From: Tubiluchus corallicola
Taxonomy: Eukaryota > Priapulida > Priapulimorpha > Priapulimorphida > Tubiluchidae
NCBI GenBank assembly: GCA_030141605.1
Contig: JAQGDQ010000046.1
Location: forward strand, 62,001 to 126,000
Reading direction: 5' to 3'
DNA length: 64,000 bases
The stretch's first letter is position 1. Every line of letters starts with the position of its first letter. The position numbers were made by a program, and so were the translations under genes. The notes under the pieces are model-generated. The model saw only the letters and a program-made list of their open reading frames with translations. It was not told the DNA's origin and searched no databases. Of this stretch, positions 210 to 58,010 are shown one piece after another.

Positions 210-15163
<14,954 letters not shown>

Positions 15164-18100: not shown

Positions 18101-18499
18101 AGTAATAGTAATTTTTAGGGTCATAATTTTGTTATTGTTTTTTAATTTGGACGTAGGCACAGCCATGCGCCGATTAGACTCTTACGCCATGCAAACTAGT
18201 ATTATGCGTGAGGTCTAGGCATTTGTCAATGATTGGTCGCCCGCTGAATTCAAAGCCAATTGGCAATACACTTAATCTTGCCCCAAATTTACCGTTACAG
18301 CACCACTTATTATATTTTAGTTTATTTTAATTACCATTTTAACCAGGCACGCCGGACTCGACTGTATTTATGTAATATTGTGCCTTTTGTTCTAAACTTG
18401 CTCACTTTAAATAATAAGTAGACTTCTTTTTATTTCATAGAAGTTAATAAAAGAAGTACCGATTTGACTTCCGACCTAAACATTAGACAATTAAATTTT
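15164..18499. other. TSC2 3' UTR and intergenic region
   Basis: There is no recognisable gene here. A likely TSC2 polyadenylation signal AATAAA lies at 15470-15475, with further AATAAA copies near 16189 and 16259. The 17.4-18.0 kb part is less AT-rich and has short open frames without family similarity. A run of ACTAGT/TAGTAA low-complexity sequence lies near 18061-18115. The promoter of the downstream gene should be in the last few hundred bases, but I cannot place a start site. Confidence 0.6.
15470..15475 (+). terminator. Putative TSC2 polyadenylation signal
   Basis: First AATAAA hexamer after the TSC2 stop codon, about 307 nt downstream. Later hexamers near 16189 and 16259 could also be used. 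Confidence 0.45.
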
Positions 18500-18834
18500 A
18501 TGGTGCCTGTAATTTTAACGTCTTTATTTAGGAACTGTTTTGTGTTGCTTCTTATCGACACCGTGGTTGCTGACGTCGTTACTGAACCTCATCTGCATGT
18601 TGATGAATGCTTGTCAGAACCTTGTCTGAATGGCGGCACTTGTTTAGATGGCACAAATGTTTACGTATGTGTATGCCAAATTCATTATACTGGTGTTCAG
18701 TGTGAAACGCATAATGAATGTTTCTCAAGCCCTTGTCGAAATGGAGGGACATGTATTGATGGTAGAAATAAGTATGAGTGCAAATGTCCTCAGGATTACA
18801 CCGGCAAAAACTGTGAATTGCTTATTAAGCCTGG
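18500..18834 (+). other. Signal peptide and two EGF-like domains of the giant protein
   Basis: The signal peptide occupies roughly residues 1-23. The EGF domains begin DECLSEPCLNGGTC and NECFSSPCRNGGTC and each ends in a YTGxxCE/YTGKNCE-type segment. The first starts D-E-C but lacks the full calcium-binding consensus that I can verify. These are the only EGF modules in the protein and all lie in exon 1. Confidence 0.9.
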
Positions 18835-21800
18835 CAGGTGTCCTGAACCAAAAAAATTGGGTGGTGATGACGTGTGTCCTGTTGACTTATGCAATGCTGA
18901 CAGTGACTGCTCAGATGAAGAAAAATGTTGTAAATTTGAAAAGTGTGGACCAGTTTGTGTTACACCTTTATTAACAGTCTGCGAAATTAATCGAGCCAAC
19001 TTCAATTTACAGCACGTTTCCAGTCTATCAAGCAGTGGGTATACAGATCATTATCCACAGTGTATGGCAAATGGTGAGTACCAACGGCATCAATTTGACA
19101 TTAATAATGGTTATTCGTGGTGTGTTAACAAAACTGGTGAAAACATTCCAGGATCAAAGAGGTCATTGTCAGCCCCAATAGCTAACTGTGATGAGCCAAT
19201 CTTACAGGTATGCACCATGTATAATTTGATTTTAGTGTGTTCTATTTGCTAAACTCCTTCGACTTTACTCACTATTAAAGTTTAACATTTTTAATCAATG
19301 CATCCTTGAAAACCAAAACATGTTTTTGGCGTTACAAGAAGTGTGCTTACTATGGCAATACAGTGTCGATATTTTTTATTATTGCAGGAATGTGAATTCA
19401 CAAAGGCTAACTGCCCATTGAAATGTGTTCATGGATTTGAATCTCATCATGATACGCTTTGCCCTTTATGTAAATGTAAACTTTCACCATGTGAACTTGT
19501 TAAATGCCCTGGCTCTACATACTGCAAATTCTTTCACGTAGACTGCGGTCATTTTCATTGCCCAAAACTTGCCAAATGTTCTAAGACTGATAAGCTTGGA
19601 CACTGTCCTTACATTACTGAGCTTAACATGATGCGATGTCCTCCTATTTCATGCAGATATGACACAGACTGTGTAGCAGAGGAAAAATGTTGTTATTTCA
19701 CTGCATGTGGACATACCTGTATCACACCTATTCTAACGGCTTGTCAAATCGAGCAAGTAAATTTTGACCTGAAAAGCTCATCAAGTAACTTCAGTGCTAT
19801 GTTTGGCTTTCATCGACCCCAGTGTCAAAGCAATGGTGAATATAATCCCTCGCAAGTTCACATACATACTGGCGATTCATGGTGCGTTAATAAAACTGAC
19901 GGCTCAGAAATTCCAGGAACTAAACGGAACAATGATCTGCCAGTGGCAGATTGCAATGCATCTTCTACTAATCTGTGTAAATTTAACATAAATGTGTGCC
20001 AAACTAAATGTGAGTATGGATATTTGGTTGATGAGGTCACTTTATGCGCTACTTGTAACTGCAAAGCTTCTCCATGTATGGGGGTTTACTGTGCAAGTTC
20101 ACAGGAGTGTCAACTAAAAGAAGTAATGTGTCGTACCAACAATTGCCCAAAACTTGCAAAATGCCCTCACATAGTCAAACCTGGAATATGTAAATATACA
20201 GATTTGTTTACCAGCAGCAAATGTCCAACTCGTTTGTGTGTTTACGATAATGATTGTCCTGCAGAACTAAAATGTTGCAAGTTTTTAAAATGTGGCAAAG
20301 TTTGTTCTGCTACTGTCTTAGGAGCATGTCATCTCGAGCAAATGAATACTAATAGTCGCATTTTGAGTTCACATCCAGTAAGTGTCGGTGCCTTTCTTCC
20401 TCAATGTTACAGTAATGGTACGTATAAAAGCACACAAATTCATGACAGCTTTGGTTATTTGTGGTGTGCTAATGAAACAGGTCATGCTGTGCCTGGAACA
20501 AAGCGGCTTGCTGCCGAAAGTAACTTTTGCACACATTCAGCTGTTTTGGGACAGCTTAGTTGTGAACTAAGCTTAGAAGACTGTAAAAAGAAATGCCCTT
20601 TTGGATACAAAACTGATAACATGACTCTGTGTCCAATTTGCGATTGTAAACCATCTCCTTGTAATGGTGTTCAATGCCCAGGTCTACAAGAATGTCATTT
20701 GATTAGTGCTGAGTGCTCTGATGACCATTTTTGCCCTAAACTTGCAAAATGTACAGACCTTTATTTAAACGACAATGGCACTTGCATTGATATGAAAAAT
20801 GCCACACATACCGAATGTCCAAGCAAACTCTGTGCTAGTAATGCTGATTGTCAGACTGGTCAAGAGTGTTGTCATTTGTTAGGCTGTAATAGCATGTGTG
20901 CTGCTAAGCTATCATTATGTCAGAGAGAACAAGCAATTGTTGATTTGAAATTGTCAAGTGTCAATCCAGCACTTAAAGGTATTTACCGCCCGCGCTGTCA
21001 AAATAATGGTGACTACCAACCTTTACAGTTTCTTAACAGCACTGGCACAAGCTATTCATGGTGTGTTACTCCAGAAGGTAAGCCAATTTATAAAACATTA
21101 ACACAGTCAGCTTACAGAGACTGTGCATCAGTGCAAAATAAACCTGGAATCTGTCAGAATTCTACCGCATTTCTAAAAAGAAACTGCCCCCATCGGTCAT
21201 GCAGAAGAGATTATGACTGCCTAGCAGAAGAAAAATGTTGTGATTTCGACAATTGCGGGAAAGTTTGTATTACTCCAGTATTAACTGCATGTCAAATTGA
21301 ACAAGCAAATTATAATTTGGAAATGTCTGACAGTAATTCAAACTCATTTGTTGCTTTTCATCCTCTGTGTACTGGCAGTGGTGAATATCAACCCATCCAG
21401 TATGACCCAAAGGACAATAGCTTATGGTGTGTTTCTCAAGATGGTCAGCCAGTTCCAGGTACTAAGAGATTTCCTCTTTCTAATCCAATAACATGTAAAG
21501 CTGCGATAGAATGTGAGGGTCAAAAGAGTAAGTGTCAAAGAAAGTGTGCATATGGACATAAACTTAATAATAAAACATTTTGCCCTACATGCGAATGTAA
21601 ACCATCTCCATGCAAACACATTAAATGCCCCGGTATTCTAAAGTGTGAAATTCTGCACTTGGATTGTGGCTCAGCTTTTTGCCCTAAATTAGCAAAGTGT
21701 GTAAAAACAAAAAGTTCTGGTGTGTGCCCTGAATCAAGGGAATTTCATGAAAATGAATGTCCGGTTAATAAATGCAATTCAGATTACGATTGTCCATTTA

Positions 21801-24800
21801 ATAAAAAATGTTGCAGCTTTGAAGACTGTGGAAGAATCTGTTCTATTCCTGTGTTGGACGCATGCAGAATTGATCAAATAAATGCAGAACTGGTAAATTC
21901 TAAAATTCGTTTACCTCAGTGCACATCTAGTGGAGACTACTTACCCATACAGTTTGACGAAACTTATAGGTACTCATTTTGTGTTAACCAAGCTGGAAGT
22001 CCTATTCCCGGCACAAAGCACTATAAAGATAAGTTACCTACAGTTGACTGCTATGCCATAATGGAAAAAATAGGGCATCATCTCATATCTCTAAATACTG
22101 AAACTAAAAAATGCCCTCCACAGGCATGCCGTTACATCCGCAATAAGGCTGCAGCAAACAGCTCAAAAAACTGCAGTGATTACATTTATAACAGTACAAG
22201 TTGTAAGCAATCTTATAATGCTAGATCTGAGACAGGGGTAGAGCAATGCCACTTAAATTTGTGTAACAATACTTACTCTTTCTCAACTACAAACAGATTA
22301 TATGAATGTAGGAAAAATTACTGTCCTTTAAAATGCATTTATGGGTATGCAGTCCACAGTGAAACTCTTTGTCCTATGTGTCAGTGTAAGCCTTCGCCAT
22401 GTGAAGGTGTTGTGTGCTCTGATTCTCAAGTTTGCCATGCTGTGGACATAGATTGTGGAATGGAAATTTGTCCAAAATTAGCAAAATGTATTTTAAAACA
22501 GTGGTTTCATTTAAAAAGTATTGGATGCTCAACTCATATTTGCAAGAAAACTGGTAAGTGGAAAACTTGGATGACTTCTTGCCAGATAAGTCAGAAAAAT
22601 GCAGACTTGTGCCAGGTGACTCACTCAGGTTTTGGAGAAATGTACCATCCTCAATGTACAAAATTAGGTGAATATGAAAAGAGACAGTGGGATGCAACCA
22701 GAAGTTTTTCTTGGTGTGTTACCAGCAATGGCATTGAAATTCCAGGAACACTGCGACATAAAGACGAGAAACCTGCTGACTGCTACGCAATTGGGGAAAA
22801 AGAGGGTCTATGTCATGGCTTTGGTGAATTTAAAAATGCTAAATGTCCACAGTTGATGTGTAGTAGCGATAGTGATTGTCCGTTTGACGAAAAATGTTGC
22901 AATTTTGAAAAATGTGGGCAAGTTTGTGTCAGTCCTGTACGAGAACTAAATAGGCGGGGTATTTGTTATGATCCTAGTTACTATGAAAATGTCACAGTGT
23001 GTCCAACTCAGTCATGCAAAACTGATAATGACTGTGAAGCAGAGAAAAAGTGCTGCCCTTTTACTGCATGTGGAAATGTTTGCACTGCGGCTTTGATGGC
23101 AACTGTGAGCAAACCTGGGGCATGCTTAGACAATAATGAATTTGCCAAAAAAGAGTGCCCGACATCATCCTGTACTGTTGACATCGACTGCCCATTGGAT
23201 AAAAAGTGCTGTCAATTTGAAAAATGTGGAAGAGTGTGCTCTGACCCACTGTTACTGCAAAATGAATCAATCATTTGTCCAAATCCAAAGATGTTCATCA
23301 ATAGCCAATGCCCAGCTGAGACATGTAAAAATGATAGTGACTGCACGTTAAGTAAAAAGTGTTGCCACTTTGATGTGTGTGGACAAGTTTGTTCGAGTGT
23401 TGATTTTGTTCTAAATAAGCCAGGACATTGTTACATACTTAACAAAAATGATGCCCAGAAGTGTATAAGTTTACCTTGCCAGTCTGATGCCGAATGCCCA
23501 GGTGATAAAAAATGTTGTTTTTTTCCAGATTGTGGAAAATCCTGCTCCAAACCAGTACACTTGTCAATACAAAAATCAGGTATTTGCCCAAACACGTTTA
23601 AAGGTCATAAATGTCCTAACCAGAAATGTAGTGATGACATCGATTGCAAAGGAAAGGAGAAATGTTGTTATTTTCTGAACTGTGGTTACGTTTGTTACTT
23701 GCCAATTATTTCAGGTTTGCAAGTATGTAATGTTAGCACCGGCGATTGTCAGGTGAATTGCACTCATGGGTATATTATTGATAATGAATCTATGTGTCCC
23801 ACATGTAAGTGTAAACCTTCACCCTGTGATGTTATTCACTGTCCAGATAGGCAGGACTGCGAACTGATGACCATTGACTGCGAAAGTGACTTCTGCCCTA
23901 AACTTGCTAAGTGTGTGGAAAAAAGTAAACCGGGAAAGTGTCCTTCTCGTTCTCTCTTTGACATAAAGTTTTGCCCACACCAGCTTTGTCAATCAGACAG
24001 TGATTGCCCAAGAGAAGAAAAGTGTTGCCAGCTAGATGTATGTGGATTGGTGTGTCTTACTCCAAAATTAACAAATTGTCAAATAGAACAAGCTAACATA
24101 AATTTGTATTTGCTTAGCATGTCAACGGATGTTATAAAACCTCATTTTCCCAGCTGTTTTATTAATGGTGAATATAAGCCGCTGCAATATAACATCGCTG
24201 CAGGTTATTCGTGGTGTATTAACAAAGACGGCTTTGCAATCCCGGGTACAAAACGGCTTCTTGGATCATTGACTCTTGATTGTGATGTATTTACAAGTAA
24301 AGCAGGGATATGCCATAATGATATAGAACTTCAAAAAAACAAGTGTCCTCGTTTTTCATGTAGCAGTGACTACGATTGTCCAAATTCTGAAAAATGCTGT
24401 TTGACTAAGACATGTGGTTTTATTTGTTATCCTCCAATATTTTATGAATCAAAACCAGGAGTTTGCTATGACTCACGACATTTCGATGCACTTTACTGTC
24501 CAACAGAATTGTGTAATAATGATTTTGATTGCCGTGCTTCTGAAAAATGCTGCATGTTTTTGGAATGTGGCAGTGTATGCTTTCCACCTGCTTTGCCTAT
24601 AACCAAACCGGGAAATTACCAAAATCCAAAAAACATTACACATTACACACTAAATAGATCTAAACCTGGAATATGTCACCACCCAAACACGTTTAATGCC
24701 AGAAATTGTCCCAGCGTATCTTGTGAAAATGATTACAACTGTCCTGCAGGAGATAAATGTTGTTTTTATGATGCATGTGGAACTGTTTGTTCAGCACCTT

Positions 24801-27800
24801 TATTATCAGCAAACAAGCCAGGTGTATGTCATCATTCAAAGTTATTTAAATACAAAGATTGTCCACCTGTGCCATGCTACACTGACATAGAGTGTCCTTC
24901 AGATGAAAAGTGTTGTTATTTTGAAAGATGTGAAACTGTGTGTTACACACCAATAGTATCTATAACTAAACCCGGTGTTTGTCCTGAAATACTTGGTTAT
25001 ATCATGTGTCCCAATGAATCATGTAGTGATGATATCGATTGTCTGGAAAACAAGAAGTGCTGTTACACCATATCTTGTGGAAATGTGTGCTTAACACCAA
25101 ATGAAAGGAATTCTGTTGCATGCAAAGACTGCCACTTAAACTGTGTTTATGGATATGAAATTGATTTTGAGACTTTATGTCCAATCTGTAACTGTAAAGC
25201 TTCTCCATGTGCAAATGTGCAGTGTCCTGGAACGCAGCAGTGCAGAACAATAGACATGGAGTGTGGCTCCCATTTTTGCCCAAAACTTGCCCAATGCATG
25301 AAAACAAATAAACCAGGAAAATGCCCAACTTACTATGCTTATGACAGACATACATGTCCAAATCAGTTATGTAGTATTGACGATGACTGTCCAATGGAAG
25401 AAAAATGCTGTTATTTTGAACCATGTGGAAGTGTGTGCTCAACACCAGTATTATCAGCATGTCAGATAGAGCAAGTAAACTACAATCTGAAAAAATTTGG
25501 TAGTGAACAAATAAATACAGAAAACACTCAACCGCAGTGCTTAAGCAATGGTGCGTATAGTCCAGAGCAGTCTGATATGAGTACAGGTTACTCGTGGTGT
25601 GTAACTCAAGATGGAAATCCTATTCCAGGAACGAAAAATTCGACAAACACTTTACGGCCTAACTGTCACGAAGTGGAGCAAAAAGCTGGAGCATGTTATG
25701 ATTTAAATACAACAGAAATAGAAGTGTGTCCTTTTCACTCCTGTAAAGGAGATTATGATTGTTTGGCTGAGGAGAAATGCTGTTACTTTTTAACATGTGG
25801 CCGAGTTTGTTTCAAACCATTGTTACAAATTAACAAGCCAGGAATTTGTCCTCATTCCAGTCACTTCAATGTTAGCACATGCCCCCTGCAGAATTGCAGC
25901 AATGATATCTTCTGTCCTGCTGAGCAAAAGTGTTGCAGATTTATTGATTGCGGAAATGTTTGTACTACACCTATTGTGTCTAGAAACAAGCCTGGTTTGT
26001 GTTATGACACTGTTCACTTTGAAAGCAAGCTATGCCCCAAAACAGTATGTCATAATGACATTGACTGTCCACTACAGAAAAAATGTTGTTATAGCAAGAC
26101 ATGTGGACATATTTGCGTCTTACCAAAAAGTTCTGGCAGAAAGAGGGGCTTGTGCTTAAATAGTGATCACTTTGAATATAAAAAATGTCCACACCTGTCA
26201 TGTAGGAATGACAATGACTGTCCAGCTAGTGAAATATGCTGCAACTTTAAAAATTGTGGTAATGTTTGCTCTAAACCAATTTTATCTGTAAATAAGCCAG
26301 GAATTTGTTATGAACCAGATAAATTTCATAATAATGATTGTCCAAAAGTTGCTTGCATGAATGACATTGATTGTCCTTTTGAGGAAAAGTGTTGTCAGTT
26401 CTTAAAATGCGGAAATGTGTGTTTTAAGCCTGTGCTATCTATTAACAAGACTGGTACTTGTCCCATAAGCTTTAGTTGTGAAGAATGTCCTCATCATTCG
26501 TGTGATAATGATATAGACTGCAAAGGTGAGGAAAAATGTTGCAATTTTACATGTTGTGGAAAAACCTGTACTGCTCCAGTCGAAAAAAGTTTTGTAACTT
26601 GTCAAAATAACACAGTAAATTGTCACACGGAATGTATTCATGGATATTCAGTAGATAACGAAACTCTTTGTCCTACTTGTAAGTGTAAAGCTTCCCCTTG
26701 TGAAAATGTAACTTGCACCGGAACACAAATGTGTGAAGAATTAGATGTGCAGTGTGGAAGAAGTTTTTGTCCAAAGCTAGCTAAGTGTTCCAAAGTCACA
26801 CGACCAGGAAAGTGCCCTGACCCTAGTAAAATAATTAGTGGTGGACTGTGTACACATGATACCTGCAGCACAGATGCTGACTGCCCTGCTAATACCAGAT
26901 GTTGCTACACTTCAGCATGTGGCACTGTTTGCATTACTCCAATTTTAACAAGATGTCAGGTAGAGCGAGCCAATATTGATTTTAAGATGAGATTTGGAGG
27001 CCTAGCTTATTTACAGATTTATCGCCCCTTGTGCAAAAATGATGGCATGTATTCACCTTTACAAGTACAGAACAGCAGTAGCTACCGTTGGTGTGTCAGC
27101 CCAGATGGTCAGCCAGTTCCAGGAACAAAGAGACCACTGAGTGCAGTGCCTATTGATTGTGACATTTTACAAGGGAAACCTGGTATTTGTCCAGACTCGT
27201 ATGAGTTTGAGGATGGCAAGTGGCCAAGTCAAACTTGTGCTGCAGATCACGAATGCCCAGGTGATGAAAAATGTTGCAATTTTGCTTCACACAGAAAAAC
27301 TTGTACTCCTGCATTGCTGTCATTGAACAATCCTGGAAGTTGTCCACCTACCAATTACTTTAATGGTAGTTCGTGCCCCAAACAAGCTTGTACAAATGAC
27401 TTTTACTGCGAAGTTGGCCAAAAATGTTGTCGCTTTATTTCCTGTGGAAATGTTTGTTCACAGCCTATAGAAAATATTAATGAAAGAAGTGTATGTCAGT
27501 TTGAAAATAACATTTCAATATGTCAAAAAACTCAGCCATGTAATAATGATAGTTATTGTACATTTGCACAAAAATGCTGCTTAACTAAAGCTTGTGGAAA
27601 AGTTTGCTTGCCTGTTACACAGCCAGTCAAATTCGGAGTTTGTCCTTATTTTGACAAGTTTCATAACAAAAACTGTCCTAACCATTCATGTAACCATGAT
27701 ATAGAATGTTTAGCAGATAAAAAATGTTGCAAATTTCAAGGCTGTGGAAATGTTTGTTCTGATCCGGTACTTTCTGGAACAAAATCAGGGATTTGTCCTA

Positions 27801-30800
27801 ATGACTTTCTTGACTTGAAATGTCCTGAACAGACTTGCAAAAATGATATTGATTGCTTTGGTACTGCAAAATGTTGCAGAACAAAGTTTTGTGGTGCAGT
27901 CTGTCAAGAACCATTGGCAGTTGGTCTGCAAATATGTGACAACAATAATAAAACAGATGGCCATCTGCAATGCATCCATGGATATTTAGTTAATAATGAG
28001 ACACTTTGCCCAGTCGGAGAGTGCCCATTTTCCCCATGCCAAGGTGTTACATGCCCAGCAACTTATCAGTGCAAGTCAGTAGATGTAGGTTGTGGCACCA
28101 GTTTCTGTCCCAAACTGGCAACATGTTCGCGCATCAGTAAACCAGGAAAATGTTTACCAACAAGTAAATTTGATGGTTTAACATGTCAAGGTTTATCATG
28201 CAAAAGAGATGCTGACTGTCCTGAAGAAGAAAAGTGTTGTTATTTTAAAGCTTGTGGAAGAGTGTGTCACACTCCTACTTTAACTTCATGTGAAACTGAA
28301 CAAGCTAATTTCAAATTGCTGTTTTCTTATAATGTCACAACTGCTGACATCTCTCCGCAGTGCCTTGAAAATGGGAACTATAGGTCATTGCAAATTGACA
28401 CTGGTTTGGGATATTCCTGGTGTGTTTCTCAAGAAGGCTATCCTCTTCCTGGAACAAAGAAACAATCAATATTGGAATCCAGAAACTGCACAGAACTAAT
28501 GGTCAAGCCTGGAGTTTGCCATAGTAATCTATTTTTCAAAGATAGTAAATGCTCTAAGCAAAAATGCATTATGGACCATGATTGTGAAGGAATAGAGAAA
28601 TGTTGCACTTCTGCAGCATGTGGTAATGTCTGTGCCACTCCTATCCTATCTGTCAACAAACTGGGTTTGTGTCATGATCCTAAATATTTTAATAACAAGA
28701 AGTGTCCTTCTATGTCTTGTACTAATGACCATAACTGCATGTCAGATTTTAAATGCTGCCACTATGTTGCTTGTGGAAGAGTATGTTCTTCGCCATTGTT
28801 ACTTATGGATAAACCAGGATCATGTTATCATCCTAACACATTAAATGGAAAAGGTTGTCCACGTCTGTCATGTCATAAAGATGATGACTGTCCAGCAAAA
28901 GAAAAATGCTGCCCATTTGATGGATGTGGTAATGTATGTTTTACACCAAATTTAGAAGACAGCAAACAAGGTTTTTGTCCTAATCCTAGTACAATAACAA
29001 ATAGTAAATGTTCAAGTCAGCCATGTGAAACTGATACTGATTGCTTGGGTGATGAGAAATGTTGTCATTTTATGCTGTGTGGAAATATCTGTTCAGCTCC
29101 TGTGTTATCATTTAACAAACCAGGGCTTTGCAACAACTCCCTCATATTTGGCAGTAACAATTGTCCTTCTCAACAGTGTTACAATGATATTGAATGTCCT
29201 GGGGAGCAGAAGTGTTGTTATTCTGAAAATTGTGGAAGCATTTGCTCTACTCCCATTTTGTCGGTGATAAAATCTGGAAGTTGTCCCACTGAACCAGACA
29301 TCACAAACTGTCTTACTCAAAAATGTTCTGATGATATTGAATGCAAGGGAGAAAAGAAGTGTTGCAAGACTGAAGCTTGCGGAAATGTCTGCTCAGACCC
29401 TGTAGCAGCAAACATTCAAAAGTGCAAAATTAATGTAGAAAATTGCCAGAGGAAATGTGTGCATGGCTATGTGATGCATCATGAAACCCTTTGCCCCACT
29501 TGTTGGTGTAAGCCTTCTCCGTGTGAGAAAGTTAAATGTTCTGGTTTACGTACTTGTCAAACAATAGATATGGCTTGTGGCAGCATTTACTGTCCAAAGC
29601 TTGCAAAATGCAAGCATGGCCATGATTCTGACAAATTAGGTGTGTGTTACTCTGCCAATAAGATTATAGCTCCTGACTGCCCAGAAAAGGGTTGCATTAA
29701 TGATACCAGTTGTCCAGCAGAAGAAAAATGCTGCATGTCTAAAGCATGTGGTATGGTATGTTCAGTTCCATCACTAACTAACTGCCAAACTGAGCAGATA
29801 AATGTTGATCTACAGCTGTCAGGCAACAACTCTATGAAATGGTCTATAATATCAGGAAGACATAGACCTCAATGTTTGGAAAATGGACAATATCAATTGA
29901 AGCAATTTCATATTTCAAAAGGATATTCATGGTGTGTCACTACCAAAGGCCAGCCAATTTCAGGAACTAAGCAACCACATCATGCAAAACAAATTGACTG
30001 TGATATGAAAAGCCACAAAATAGGGATTTGTGATGATTTTAATAAATTTAAAGGCAAAAGGTGTCCAAGTCAACTGTGCAAGAAAGATAACGGATGCCCA
30101 GGAGAAGAAAAATGTTGCAGTTTTGAAGGTTGTGGCAAAGTGTGTTTTGCTCCAATATTATCTGCAAACAAACCAGGCCTTTGTCCAGAAGCAGGCTATT
30201 TTAATACAGACAGTTGTCCAACTAAAATATGTAGCAATGATATTTATTGTCCAGCAGAAGAGAAATGTTGTAGATTTGCTGCTTGTGGAAGCGTATGTAC
30301 AACTCCCATTTCAACGGTGAACAAGCCAGGAATATGTCTTTTTCGCCTCAAAATGAAAAAAGAAGAATGTCCCACATACTCTTGCAAAAATGACAATGAC
30401 TGCCCAACTTTTGAAAAATGTTGCCACTTTAAAGGATGTGGGAAAGTATGTTATGAACCACAGCTTAATGCAACGAAGCGTGGAACTTGTTATAATCCAA
30501 ACAAGCTTAAGAAGGATGCTTGTTCTCCATTAACCTCATGTGAAGCTGACAATGATTGTCCTGGAAATGAAAAATGCTGTTATTTTGAATCATGTGGGTA
30601 TGTTTGTTTTAAGCCCATAATGTCAGTGAACAATCCTGGCATTTGCTTTGATGCCCAAAAATTTGTAGGGAGAAAATGTCCTACCGTTATGTGTGCCAAT
30701 GACATAGACTGCACAAAACATGAAAAATGTTGCCATTTCCAGGGATGCGGGACTGTGTGTTTCAATGTTATTTCTGCAGGTCCAGAAGCGTTTAGTGAAA

Positions 30801-32668
30801 AACCAGGAATATGCATTGACACATTTCACAGCAATAACTGTCCCACTCAGAAGTGCAGCAGAGACAGCGATTGTGATGGAGCAGCGAAATGTTGCCAGTC
30901 TGCATCATGTGGTAACATCTGTTCCGTGCCATTGCTATCCAGTTATGAAATCTGTAGGCCTAATACAATTGCTTGTCAGAGGGAATGTCATTATGGGTAC
31001 CTTACACACGACAAAACTCTCTGCCCTACTTGCATTTGCAAAGCATCTCCATGTGAAGGCGTTAAATGCCCATATCTGCAGGAATGTGGAACTATCAATA
31101 TTGAGTGTGGCAGTACATCCTGCACAAAACTAGCAAAGTGTGCTTACCCTCATGGAAATAAACCTGGTAAGTGCCCCACTTCCTGGGAATCTGGTGCCAA
31201 AAGTTGTACAATTCCAGGTAAGTCGTGCAAAATAGATAGTGAATGCCCGGCAGAAGAGAAATGCTGCACACATAAAGATCGGATGGTATGTTTGACTCCA
31301 AAATTAACATCCTGTGAGATTGAACAAGCAAATATTAATCTTCAGCTGTCTCGCACTTTCCATATTTCAAAAGTTGACAATGTTCAATGCATGGATGATG
31401 GGCAGTATGAACCAATACAGTACCATAGCAGCAGTGGCTACTATTGGTGTGTGACAGAGAAAGGTGTTCCAATTCCAGGGACAAAATTATATTTTGAATC
31501 ACCACTTGCTGATTGTAACTCAGCCAGAGAAAATTCCAAAATTTGTATAAATCTGCACAAGCATAGTGACACTCAGTGTGCTAGTCTTAAATGTAGCAAA
31601 GACAGCGATTGTAGATCAGGACAAATGTGTTGCAGGTCGATATCTTGTGGTAGAGTCTGCTCAACTCCAATAAAAGTAGGCCTCCAACTTTGTGACCTTA
31701 ATATTACCGAATGTCAGCAAAAATGTAATAACGGCTATCTAATTAACAGTGAGACTCTTTGCCCTACATGTGAATGTAAGCCTTCTCCTTGTCAATATGT
31801 TGAGTGTAATGACACGCAGCAGTGCAAAACACTGGACTTGCCATGTGGTTCAACATCATGCCCAAAACTCGCAAAGTGTTGTGGAAAAAGCCAAGCACAG
31901 CTTATCAAACCAGGAATTTGTCCTAATTCAAGTACTTTTGAAACTTTTGAGTGCCCACGGCAGAAATGTAATTCCGATTCGATTTGTCCTGCAGAAGAAA
32001 AATGCTGTTTTTTTCTAGCATGTGGCAAAGTATGCGTAACACCCCGCCTAACAGCATGCCAGATTTTGCAAGCAAATTTCAAGCTACATCTTTCTAATGC
32101 TCACTTAAAAGCAACCGCTGTCTACCATCCACAATGTACTGACAGTGGTGACTATGAGCTTATACAATTCAACGGTACCACAGGTGATTCATGGTGTGTT
32201 ACTCCCGAAGGTCACAAAGTGGCAGGCACAAAACTGCCGCTTGAATCAGTGCGTGTGAGCTGTACTGCTTCACTGACATGTAAACCACACATAGAAGAAT
32301 GTCCACATGAATGTGACCATGGCTATAAAACAGATAACGAGACATTATGTCCTACATGCGACTGTAAATTGTCACCTTGTCATGAAATTGTATGCAATGG
32401 CTCACAGAAGTGTGCCTTATTAAATATAGACTGCAGTATGAAAGAATGCCCTTTACTTGCAAAATGTCAATCAACTACTGATGATGTAAATCTCGAAGAA
32501 TTAACAAATGGGATAGCCACACTTGGCACTGTTTGTGTAGGGATCGTTTTTGTTGCAGTGCTTCTGCTTGCATTTGGCTTAATTTATAGACAAAGAAATC
32601 GCCGAAGGAGAGACAGAAACAGAGATGAACATATTGTCTCACTTTATCAATCCGAAACAGGTTTGTGA
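18500..32668 (+). CDS. Giant membrane protein with EGF, WAP, thyroglobulin-like and antistasin-like modules
   Basis: Two coding exons: 18500-19207 and 19388-32668 (donor GTATGC, acceptor TTGCAG, phase 0), about 4662 residues. I chose the ATG at 18500 because it starts a clear signal peptide (MVPVILTS..., hydrophobic core, then A-D-V). Two EGF domains follow (about residues 36-108), then WAP and a thyroglobulin type-1-like (TY) module. The large exon repeats antistasin-like half-domains, each continuing into a SPC...CPKLAKC segment, then WAP (KPGxC...EKCC...CGxVC), TY (PxC...GxY...SWCV...PGTK) and further WAPs. I count about 48 WAP, 14 TY and 13 antistasin-like modules. A transmembrane helix spans residues 4611-4636, followed by a basic stop-transfer (RQRNRRRRDRNR) and a short tail ending ETGL. 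WAP and antistasin families mainly inhibit serine proteases, and TY domains can inhibit cysteine proteases. A surface-tethered multi-inhibitor or adhesive role is inference. I know no named orthologue. Confidence 0.95.
22300..30940 (+). repeat. Six higher-order repeats (antistasin-WAP-TY-WAPx5-6) in the giant exon
   Basis: The antistasin-like modules start near 22300, 23710, 25115, 26595, 27925 and 29410, with the next near 30940. Each unit of about 1.3-1.5 kb encodes one antistasin-like module, one WAP (eroded in the first unit), one TY module and then five or six tandem WAPs (6, 5, 6, 5, 6, 6). Before and after this block the units are shorter, with no or one extra WAP. The units are diverged, with no long nucleotide identity, so the amplification is not recent. 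Confidence 0.85.
32510..32665 (+). other. Transmembrane helix and cytoplasmic tail of the giant protein
   Basis: Codons 32510-32587 encode 26 uncharged, mainly Leu/Val/Ile/Ala/Gly residues. They are followed by a strongly basic run and 26 tail residues in total, ending SETGL. The last residues T-G-L fit a class I PDZ ligand (S/T-x-hydrophobic). The orientation is type I, judged from the N-terminal signal peptide and the basic residues after the helix. Confidence 0.85.
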
Positions 32669-41500: not shown

Positions 41501-44500
41501 AAGGTTTTCAAATGTTAATGAATAAAAAAATTAATAAACACACCTTTCACATGGAGAAAAGTCTATGAGCTGCACCCCAGTATGACCAAATTTCATTATC
41601 TGTTTGAAATTGTCGCCTCCCCATAATGCAATGCCTCGCGCATGAAAAGTGGCTAAATAAGTTCCTAGAGGTGACCATTTGACATACGTCTCTGTCCAGC
41701 GCTATAAAGAAATTAAGACATGAAGTAATACAACAGTTGCTTACTTACTGCTCAACCCCTTTCACTCACCATCATACTATAACAAACAGTACTATTCATT
41801 GATATGCCAATGAATACAAAAAACACAACTAGTTCCACAGAAATGAAAAAACACAAGTTGATTCATTCACAGTTGTACTTTTTTCTGTTTTGTCTACCCT
41901 TAACACAGTAAGGTAAATTTTAATGTGTAATCACTAACTTTTAGCTTAAGTTGCTAAAATTTACTTTTGACAATTGCAAATTAAAAACTTTTATAAAATA
42001 AATTTATGAAAATTACCAAGTTAATACTAAGCCAAGTAGTTTTTTTGCATTAATTTACATACTTATTTAAAAGTACAAAGTGGTTAATGAATGAGAAAAC
42101 TGCTTAATTCAAGAATTTTCGATATAAGTATTATAGTTAACACTATTCGCAACCACTACAAAGGCAATTAAGTAAGATACAATTGCAAATGTAAAAAGAA
42201 CCATTACCTGCTTAAGCATTGTAATAGCAAATGAAATAGCTGATGTCAATCCAACAGATTATGTAAGAACAATAAGAACACAGCTTAAAATAAGCTAAAA
42301 AATGAGACGACTAGCCAGACATAACTTACGCAAGCAGAAAATTGTGAAGAGAAAACACAGTTCTTTCATGCACTCCAGGTGTCAGATTAGAAGTTAAATA
42401 GAAATGAGCAGCATCATTAAAGATTTTAAAAAGGGGTCATTTTGTGTATTTATCTTCTACCAGATTCCTATGACAAATATTTCTGACAAACCTTCCTAGT
42501 TTATAGCCACTGATGCCAAAAACAGCATCTGCAACAATTAATGCTCCATTACGTTGTACTTGCTGAATAGATGCGACACAAGCTTCGCTACTATTATCCC
42601 AAATACAATTATAAAAGTCTAAAAGTGGCCGTACAAAAGTCTGGTACAAACAATACAAAGATCTTTTGTCTAAGAGAAATTTAAATTTACATATAGAATC
42701 TAGGCGCTTAGCTAGTATTTGGGTAATATATCTCTTCCACGTAAAATTACTGACAAGTAATAAACGTAGGGGTTTGTGCTGAAGGTAATCACCAATTTTA
42801 ACACCGCCAGGAAAAAGATCAGGATGAACCAGAGGATGGATTTTCCTTGAAAAAACAACAGATTCAGTTTTATTTGCATTAAAAAATGCAAGCCACAAAT
42901 CAGACCAGACATAAATTCAATTTATACCTTGCTGTGAAATGGTTGCCGAGGTTACATAGTTCTCTACAACTTAGTTCCTACAAGTCAGCAGTCTAGTGTA
43001 ATGCATGTTTACAAATTTGTCCATGTGTGCACTGGCACATAACTCATTTCCCATTCACCTTTGCATGTTTGAAATCTGACACTTGCAAGCAGCCTGTTTT
43101 GGCATACTTCGTACAATACATGATTTAAATATGGCAATAACTTTGACCTGTGAAATGTGACTAATTGAACAATTAATTTCCAAACACTATCCATGAACAC
43201 GACAGTCTTGAAACTTTTTTCTCTTTCTAAAAGGATTCCTGAGTCACACTGTTTAAAATAGTAAATATCTTAAAAGATTTCAACACGTTTGGCCTCAACT
43301 GTGAAAATTTATTAGCAGTTACCAACTACTTTTTAGAAACGAAAAAATAAAAAATCAATAACAAATGAAGGCTTACCACTCTTTCTTCTAGTTTTTTAGC
43401 CTCTTGAGGTGTATTAAGGAATATACAAGTCTTCTCTCCCGCATCAAAGATAACACTATACTGATCATAACAGTCTGGATCCAACAACCACGACCGCAAA
43501 TTACCCTGTATATTTAAAAAACAATTACCAGTAGGTAAAAATCACGAAAATGCAAGAGTAGAACAAAATTACCTGCTTTTGTGTATGTACACCAATTTAC
43601 TAAACTTGGTATGGCAAACAAACCCGGGAAAATACTATGAAATTTACCATAAAATACAATACTTACTGGATCCTTGTAAGGCTGAGGTTCTGGGGGCTCC
43701 CATTCTTCGGGAATATTTGAATATCTGCAAAAATATACGTATTCCACATAAACATGTTTTATAACAAAATTTAAAAGAATTCTGCACTTGTAAAGACAGC
43801 AAGATATATGCAATATGCAAGATACATGCAGATATATTGCAATATATGCAATAAACAATACAGGAACACACTTGGTTTTTCAATCAAAAATAAGCATCGT
43901 GAACATCATATCCTGGAATAGTAATGTCAACTTCAACAAAAACAGCTCCAACCAACTATACTTATTATTTCTACAGTAATTACATAAAAACAATTTACTT
44001 ACTTTTCAAAATCTGTTAAAAGATTTACATCAAACGTGTGAAGCTTGTCCAACTTGTATCCATTACACATTTTCACCGCTTCTTGCGCACTTCCAGGTGC
44101 AGCATATTCCAAAAACATGTAGCTATGCATATGAAAATGAAGTAATGTAAAAATAAACTATCAAAAAAGTAATGAAGTTGATACCGTGACTCAAATTTTA
44201 TTAAAATTCATTGCTATTTGATGGAGACAAAATGCTTTTATTTTTACATTGCTAAGTATATTAATTAAGAATATGTCTAATATTTAATGACATGGACACA
44301 AAATTTTCTAAATCTAATGACCTGACTTGATATTCAGCTAAACTAAAAATGTAAAATCATTGGAGCGAAAAATAACAAAAGAGTGAACACTGGATTCTAG
44401 CTTGCAGCCAACATATAAGACCGACTTCTGTTTCCGTCTAATCGTCCGAGTACTATTTTCTATCGCACACCCAGCCGGGAATTTTCTAATTTTTTTGTAC

Positions 44501-49999: not shown

Positions 50000-51115
50000 T
50001 TCTCAACTTCATAGGCAGAATGATACTTGCTCCCCATAAGGCCAATTGTCCAACGATGCACATCCTCCAGCTATGGGTGAATAGCTTTTGCAGTTTTCAA
50101 ATTTGACAATGTTTATACCAATTCTACCACACCACAGCTCTTCATCAGAAACTGACAATTGTACCACTTCCTTAGTTGTCAATGCATTAGGCATTGCTTC
50201 ATCTGCAATGAACTGCACATACTCGTTTGCACCATGTTTATGATTACTGGCTTCATCTACCTTTAAAAGACGCAGAGTGGATCAGCCATCTTCTGTTGTC
50301 CTAGTACGTAAACTATTTATAGTCATATGGTTGCAGTCGAAGTACTCAAAGTTCTAGCCATGCACAAGGTTTTGATCTAGGTCTGCAAATAGTTTGCAAA
50401 ACTTTTTACCCATTAACATTTCAATTTTGTGTCCATGTAACTATGCATGGAATCGTTCACTTATAGTCCGCAAATAGTTTGCAAAACATTTTTCCCATTA
50501 ATAGTTCAATTTTGTTTCCATATACATATGCATGGAATCGTTCACATACCCTGACTAGTGCTAATGACTCTTTCTCCATTTGCGAGAATCTACTGTCACA
50601 AACTGTCAAGCCACTACTTACATAGTATACTGGTTGCATTTTACCATCCTTTTCTTAGATCAGTACAGCTCCAAGACCAACAGACCCTGCATCAGCTATC
50701 ACTTGGGTGGGCATATTTTTATCGTAATAGGCCAATGTAGCAGTTTCTGCCAACCTCTGTTTCAGTAACTTGAATGCTTATTTCTGTTCTGGTCCAAATT
50801 TAAATGGCTCTTCTTGCTTGCAAGTTAGCTTGTGAAATGGTTCTAACGTAGTAACGAAATCTGGGATAAATCAGCTGCTAAGTCTTAAAAAGCTACGAAC
50901 TTTCAATGTAGTTTCCGGCTCTCGAGTATCTGTGATACCCCGTACTCACCCTTCAGTTGGACCTATACCTTTCTTGGACAGAAGTATCCCCACGAAAACT
51001 AAGTGATCCATGATGATAATACATTTGTCTGGATTCAAGGTCAAGCCAACTTCAGACAATTTCTGCATGACAGCCATCATTGTCTGTTTCCTCATCTGGA
51101 CCATGTACTAAAGGT
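50000..51115 (-). mobile_element. Decayed Ty3/gypsy LTR-retrotransposon pol fragment
   Basis: Minus-strand frames show, in order, the end of reverse transcriptase (GLTLNPDKC; an FVGILLSKKGIGPT segment), the RT-RNase H connection and RNase H (VGLGAVLI, SQMEKESLALVRVCERFHAY). Then come the segment before integrase (FIADEAMPNALTTKEV) and adjacent sequence. It is broken by several stops and frame changes and by an internal tandem duplication. The protease, the N-terminal RT, the integrase core and LTRs are not found. Confidence 0.85.
50383..50545. repeat. Tandem duplication inside gypsy RNase H remnant
   Basis: Two copies (50383-50460 and 50468-50545, offset 85 bp) share GCAAATAGTTTGCAAAAC, CAATTTTGT and GCATGGAATCGTTCAC with a handful of differences. 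The duplication is local to the dead element. Confidence 0.88.

Positions 51116-57913: not shown

Positions 57914-58010
<97 letters not shown>

Follow-up and report, generated by a model that had tools for sequence, protein, structure and literature searches.

The window analysed here is a 64,000-nucleotide stretch of the priapulid Tubiluchus corallicola (contig JAQGDQ010000046.1, positions 62,001 to 126,000, forward strand). It carries a two-exon gene predicted to encode a 4662-residue protein (617 Cys) in which two EGF modules precede 75 modules of three families: WAP (W), thyroglobulin-like (TY, or T) and antistasin-like (A). Judged by its sequence, this is a real giant membrane protein. 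What holds such a chain together, and what might it do?

Gene model and protein ends

The gene lies in two open frames of the forward strand, 18422-19252 and, after it, 19310-32668, which is stop-free for 4452 codons in the list of open reading frames. At this base composition, 4426 open codons have a chance probability of about 10^-134, and the remaining two forward frames of the large exon contain 170 and 520 stops. Exon 1 runs from the ATG at 18500 to CAG/GTATGC at 19207, and exon 2 begins at 19388, directly after TTATTATTGCAG, in the same phase as exon 1. The 180-bp intron is GT-AG and of phase 0, and the joined frame stops at TGA 32666-32668. Just 5' of the ATG, at 18422-18440, a pyrimidine-rich stretch ending in CATAG resembles a 3' splice site; a 5'-untranslated exon may lie further upstream, joined through an intron in the 5'-untranslated region. 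At the C-terminal end, one segment alone is strongly hydrophobic (Kyte-Doolittle 2.9 over 19 residues at aa 4617), and after it comes a basic tail. Its last residues, ETGL (32654-32665), fit what we take to be a class I PDZ ligand motif, which could link the tail to PDZ proteins. The gene model of the first-pass annotation (long open frame, consensus splice sites, matching phase), its single huge coding exon (13,281 bp, no stop before the TGA) and its predicted C-terminal membrane anchor all stand. The features of the gene and its ends are:

18500..19207 (+), coding exon 1, 236 aa: signal-like start, 2 EGF, WAP 1, TY 1
18500..18577 (+), putative signal peptide, about aa 1-26; second-ranking hydropathy of the protein (aa 1-19)
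18608..18703 (+), EGF-like 1, aa 37-68; Pfam PF00008 in 2 stretches, boundary from cysteines
18719..18814 (+), EGF-like 2, aa 74-105; Pfam PF00008 at 74-104
18839..18958 (+), WAP 1, aa 114-153; Pfam PF00095 8.5e-8
18980..19189 (+), TY 1, aa 161-230; Pfam PF00086 1.6e-9
19208..19387 (+), intron: splice sites; an antistasin-like module comes right after TY across the junction, as elsewhere in the protein
19388..32668 (+), coding exon 2, 13,281 bp with TGA: 47 WAP, 13 TY, 13 antistasin-like, transmembrane segment, tail
32528..32587 (+), predicted transmembrane segment, aa 4617-4636; top hydropathy of the protein, basic stretch next
32588..32665 (+), predicted cytoplasmic tail, 26 residues, basic, ending ETGL

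Module identity

Cysteine patterns give 48 WAP, 14 TY and 13 antistasin-like modules; of these 75, exon 2 encodes 73. Together with Pfam, which finds two EGF, one WAP and one TY in exon 1, they reproduce the earlier counts for all four families. Scanned as a whole protein, exon 2 yields 46 WAP and 13 TY stretches; cut out singly, all 47 of its WAPs match PF00095 at E<=0.01, as does the exon-1 WAP at the value listed, and all eight WAP Cys are kept in 46/48. The TY modules belong to PF00086 by sequence pattern and, in one modelled unit, by predicted fold. All 14 have the same four Cys, one with a fifth, and all lack both Cys of the middle disulfide, so that none is of the three-disulfide subtype (six Cys including CWCV).

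The antistasin-like assignment needs more care. The Pfam check proposed in the first-pass annotation succeeded for EGF, WAP and TY in the whole protein, but the same scan reported no antistasin at E<=0.01. Only when modules were cut out singly did 12 of 13 match PF02822, at E<=1 (best 2.5e-5), and the five scored singly against the Pfam gathering score all fell under it, making this a weak match. The module has 59-64 residues and 12 Cys (10 in one of the 13). The PF02822 match spans its first half; for the second half, the alignment is to bdellastasin (N-terminal half) and is weak (E 0.051). From these alignments, the module may consist of two antistasin halves in the other order.

Super-repeat plan and age of the array

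The module order reads WTA WTA WTA WT WTA WTA T W6, then A W T W5, A W T W6, A W T W5, A W T W6, A W T W6, and ends A W T W, A W T, A. Within it, six A-to-A units, starting at aa 1210, 1683, 2148, 2641, 3086 and 3582, measure 445-510 residues and share 35-47% identity by BLASTP; in U5, the first, no intact W stands between A and T:

19391..22051 (+), N-terminal run, A-W-T, A-W-T, A-W-T-W-T, A-W-T
22052..22306 (+), irregular linker, 85 residues, with a WAP-like remnant (by eye)
22307..23725 (+), super-repeat U5, A, decayed W remnant (22490-22579, by eye), T, W6
23726..25120 (+), super-repeat U6, A-W-T-W5
25121..26599 (+), super-repeat U7, A-W-T-W6; 46.5% identical to U10
26600..27934 (+), super-repeat U8, A-W-T-W5
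27935..29422 (+), super-repeat U9, A-W-T-W6
29423..30952 (+), super-repeat U10, A-W-T-W6
30953..32467 (+), C-terminal run, A-W-T-W, A-W-T, A

The most irregular part of the array is 22052-22579, where two decayed WAP remnants, seen by eye near aa 1125-1209 and 1271-1300, flank the fifth antistasin-like module; another long linker, of 31 aa, lies at aa 1968-1998.

A short, 8-residue C1-C2 spacing occurs in all six array-closing WAPs, vs 7/48 WAPs overall (5.7e-7, for a pattern that was seen first and tested afterwards), and this shared trait supports duplication of whole units. For the other WAPs, comparison did not yield a slot-by-slot descent. How old are the copies? Maximum nucleotide identity is at most 69% in any pair (1128 WAP, 91 TY and 78 antistasin-like pairs). 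Third codon positions average 41-43% identity, vs 30% expected if unrelated, and second positions keep 58-73%. Between super-repeats, synonymous divergence (dS) is uncomputable in 10/15 pairs and 1.9-3.7 in the other five, with non-synonymous divergence (dN) at 0.47-0.58. Saturated third and conserved second positions, together with these dS and dN values, indicate that the array is old and kept by selection on the protein sequence; by the same comparisons the copies are unhomogenised. No intron separates the 73 modules of exon 2, so duplication probably took place in an exon already without introns, and the presence of the 180-bp intron makes a simple retrocopy less likely. The super-repeat plan and the intron-free exon support the earlier proposal that the gene grew as parts of it were duplicated internally, here in a template poor in introns.

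What might the chain do?

We favour, at a probability of roughly 45%, an armoured surface fibre with thyropin heads. The ectodomain of this type I membrane protein would string together 77 small disulfide-rich modules and would probably stand out from the cell as a long fibre that resists proteases. Its array would have arisen as an A-W-T-W(n) unit was duplicated, long ago, within one exon. WAP and antistasin-like modules would mainly form the armoured stalk, and the 14 TY modules spread along it would be the likeliest working sites, which, in the manner of thyropins, could fill the active-site cleft of papain-like cathepsins. Fibre shape, cell-surface place and cathepsin binding are what we infer from the module make-up. 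In the antistasin-like module that starts at aa 3086, the second and fifth Cys, presumably disulfide partners, are both missing. In the WAP at aa 2837 C2 and C7 are gone, which are partners in the WAP pairing 1-6, 2-7, 3-5, 4-8 (PMC5691223). With partners lost together in both, module folding looks constrained. Several points weigh against the favoured fibre. The WAP at aa 4165 has lost a single Cys only, which counts against folding constraint, as do the fifth Cys of one TY and the two WAP remnants. The modelled unit is predicted with modest confidence (mean pLDDT 72.2, pTM 0.41, 11 sequences), and the antistasin-like module modelled alone gave no structural match. Finally, short-loop WAPs may still inhibit some proteases.

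This last point leads to the role suggested by the first-pass annotation, a surface anti-protease of broad spectrum; as a multi-headed inhibitor, it would have its WAP, TY and antistasin modules act on one protease class each. Inhibitors are known in all three families, and that part of the suggestion holds; insect mixed inhibitors with the same families have been described (PMC3407033, PMC5309989, PMC3278429), and the Cys frameworks are kept (46/48 WAPs, 12 Cys in 12/13 antistasin-like modules, the same four in 14/14 TYs). The breadth of inhibition, however, is weakened by the reactive loops. Between C2 and C3 the WAPs have 4 residues in 45/48 (5 in two, 6 in one), vs 8 in elafin and SLPI, and C2 is shifted, with Pro following it in 38/48; none of the 48 thus has the canonical loop of a serine-protease inhibitor of the elafin/SLPI type. 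At what we assume to be P1 in the antistasin-like modules, a position that aligns to a Lys of bdellastasin, Lys occurs in one of 13 and Gln, Pro or His in the other 12, vs the Arg or Lys of antistasin-type inhibitors. Because both kinds of loop are altered, broad-spectrum inhibition becomes less likely, and we consider it doubtful. Could the protein instead be a non-inhibitory matrix, adhesive or shell component, akin to perlwapin, the Lottia WAP-antistasin proteins or sea-star footprint proteins? Lottia shell proteins with 8 and 11 WAPs have antistasin domains between them (PMC3374290), and domains of both kinds recur in Sfp8 of sea stars (PMC9382459). Yet the main text of neither paper contains the word 'thyroglobulin', and the predicted transmembrane segment and tail would suit a secreted matrix protein only if shedding released it; this reading seems to us rather unlikely.

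A precursor from which many small inhibitors, or WAP peptides with antimicrobial action, are cut after export is less probable still, as dibasic pairs occur in just 5/74 linkers (3/28 WAP-WAP linkers) and a membrane anchor would be odd for a secreted precursor. Least credible of all is that no intron fills the 180-bp gap and the locus is either a pair of genes or a relic without expression. The two WAP remnants, judged by eye, have decayed, but the splice sites are consensus with the same phase on both sides, an antistasin-like module comes next after TY 1 as in other units, codon positions 1-2 are conserved vs a saturated position 3, and 13.3 kb are stop-free. The armoured fibre also has a bolder version, a membrane-tethered multivalent cathepsin trap with 14 thyropin heads on a disulfide-armoured WAP/antistasin stalk. 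We regard it as improbable; if true, it would be an avid, protease-proof cell shield against lysosomal-type proteases of prey, parasites or damaged tissue. The 75 diverged modules offer a natural series for studying how inhibitor folds might become structural, and from the age of the copies and their lack of homogenisation one would expect related animals to have kept the giant exon.

Neighbourhood of the gene

The left neighbour (+) has one exon with a Rap/Ran-GAP domain (E 5.3e-12) and a second piece that fails the cut-off (0.0022); we take it to be tuberin (TSC2)-like. An exon of the right neighbour (-) matches eIF3B of solved structures (7e-30). Together with the introns, the two neighbours suggest nuclear DNA of an animal. 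Elsewhere in the window lie a retroelement RNase H domain fragment at 50460-50654 (-) (PF17917, 2.2e-10), overlapped by an 85-bp unit repeated 1.9 times with 88% matches (50381-50545), and a 159-codon open stretch at 42440-42916 (-) that has no Pfam match and looks like the final part of a non-LTR reverse transcriptase. Long microsatellites, CT-rich and ATA, occupy 14012-14274 and 57914-58007.

Comparison with known systems

The thyropins saxiphilin domain 2 and p41 fragment share the TY fold with the window protein, and saxiphilin domain 2 lacks one disulfide, as the window TYs do; they differ in having one or two TYs, vs 14. TY structures of EpCAM and Trop2 also matched the window TY. Both proteins, as we understand them, carry TY on a single-pass membrane anchor, like the window protein, and differ from it in having one TY each and no WAP or antistasin module. 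Dumpy-type giant fibres are built of different modules. Like the window protein, they are very long modular membrane-anchored extracellular chains (PMC3278429). Nematostella NV2.11346 has a long array with extensive WAP/vWFA repeats, resembling the window WAP array, with vWFA where the window protein has TY and antistasin (PMC12549020). In the Lottia gigantea shell-matrix proteins and perlwapin, antistasin domains interrupt WAP arrays, as here; the Lottia proteins have at most 11 WAPs and about 85 and 103 kDa, and the available text describes neither TY nor a membrane anchor (PMC3374290).

The closest relatives by composition are arthropod mixed inhibitors, in which the three module families also occur together. 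Insects, crustaceans and mites are described as sharing thyropins that occur together with WAP and antistasin domains (PMC3407033). In PxSPI44, WR1 and a TY, which its authors class as a non-inhibitor domain, join 3 WAP, 2 antistasin and 1 Kunitz (PMC5309989). BmSPI56, with 1 Kunitz, 3 antistasin, 2 WAP and a 'TSR', described there as a cysteine-protease-inhibitor unit, may be another such protein (PMC3278429); 'thyroglobulin' does not appear in that text, and equating TSR with TY is our reading. The first-pass annotation did not know the combination at this copy number on one membrane anchor; of the combination itself, these arthropod descriptions (PMC3407033, PMC5309989) show that it is not new. 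The arthropod proteins differ from the window protein in having few modules, and the portions consulted mention no membrane anchor or super-repeat; nor did the open-access literature yield a protein described as having so many copies along with EGF modules and a membrane anchor. The size of the window protein, the ordered plan of its repeats and its one very large exon do look unusual. By its predicted modules, the window protein is a large variant of a known mixed inhibitor-module kind, and with it a known small class would reach giant size, with a membrane anchor and a higher-order repeat plan.
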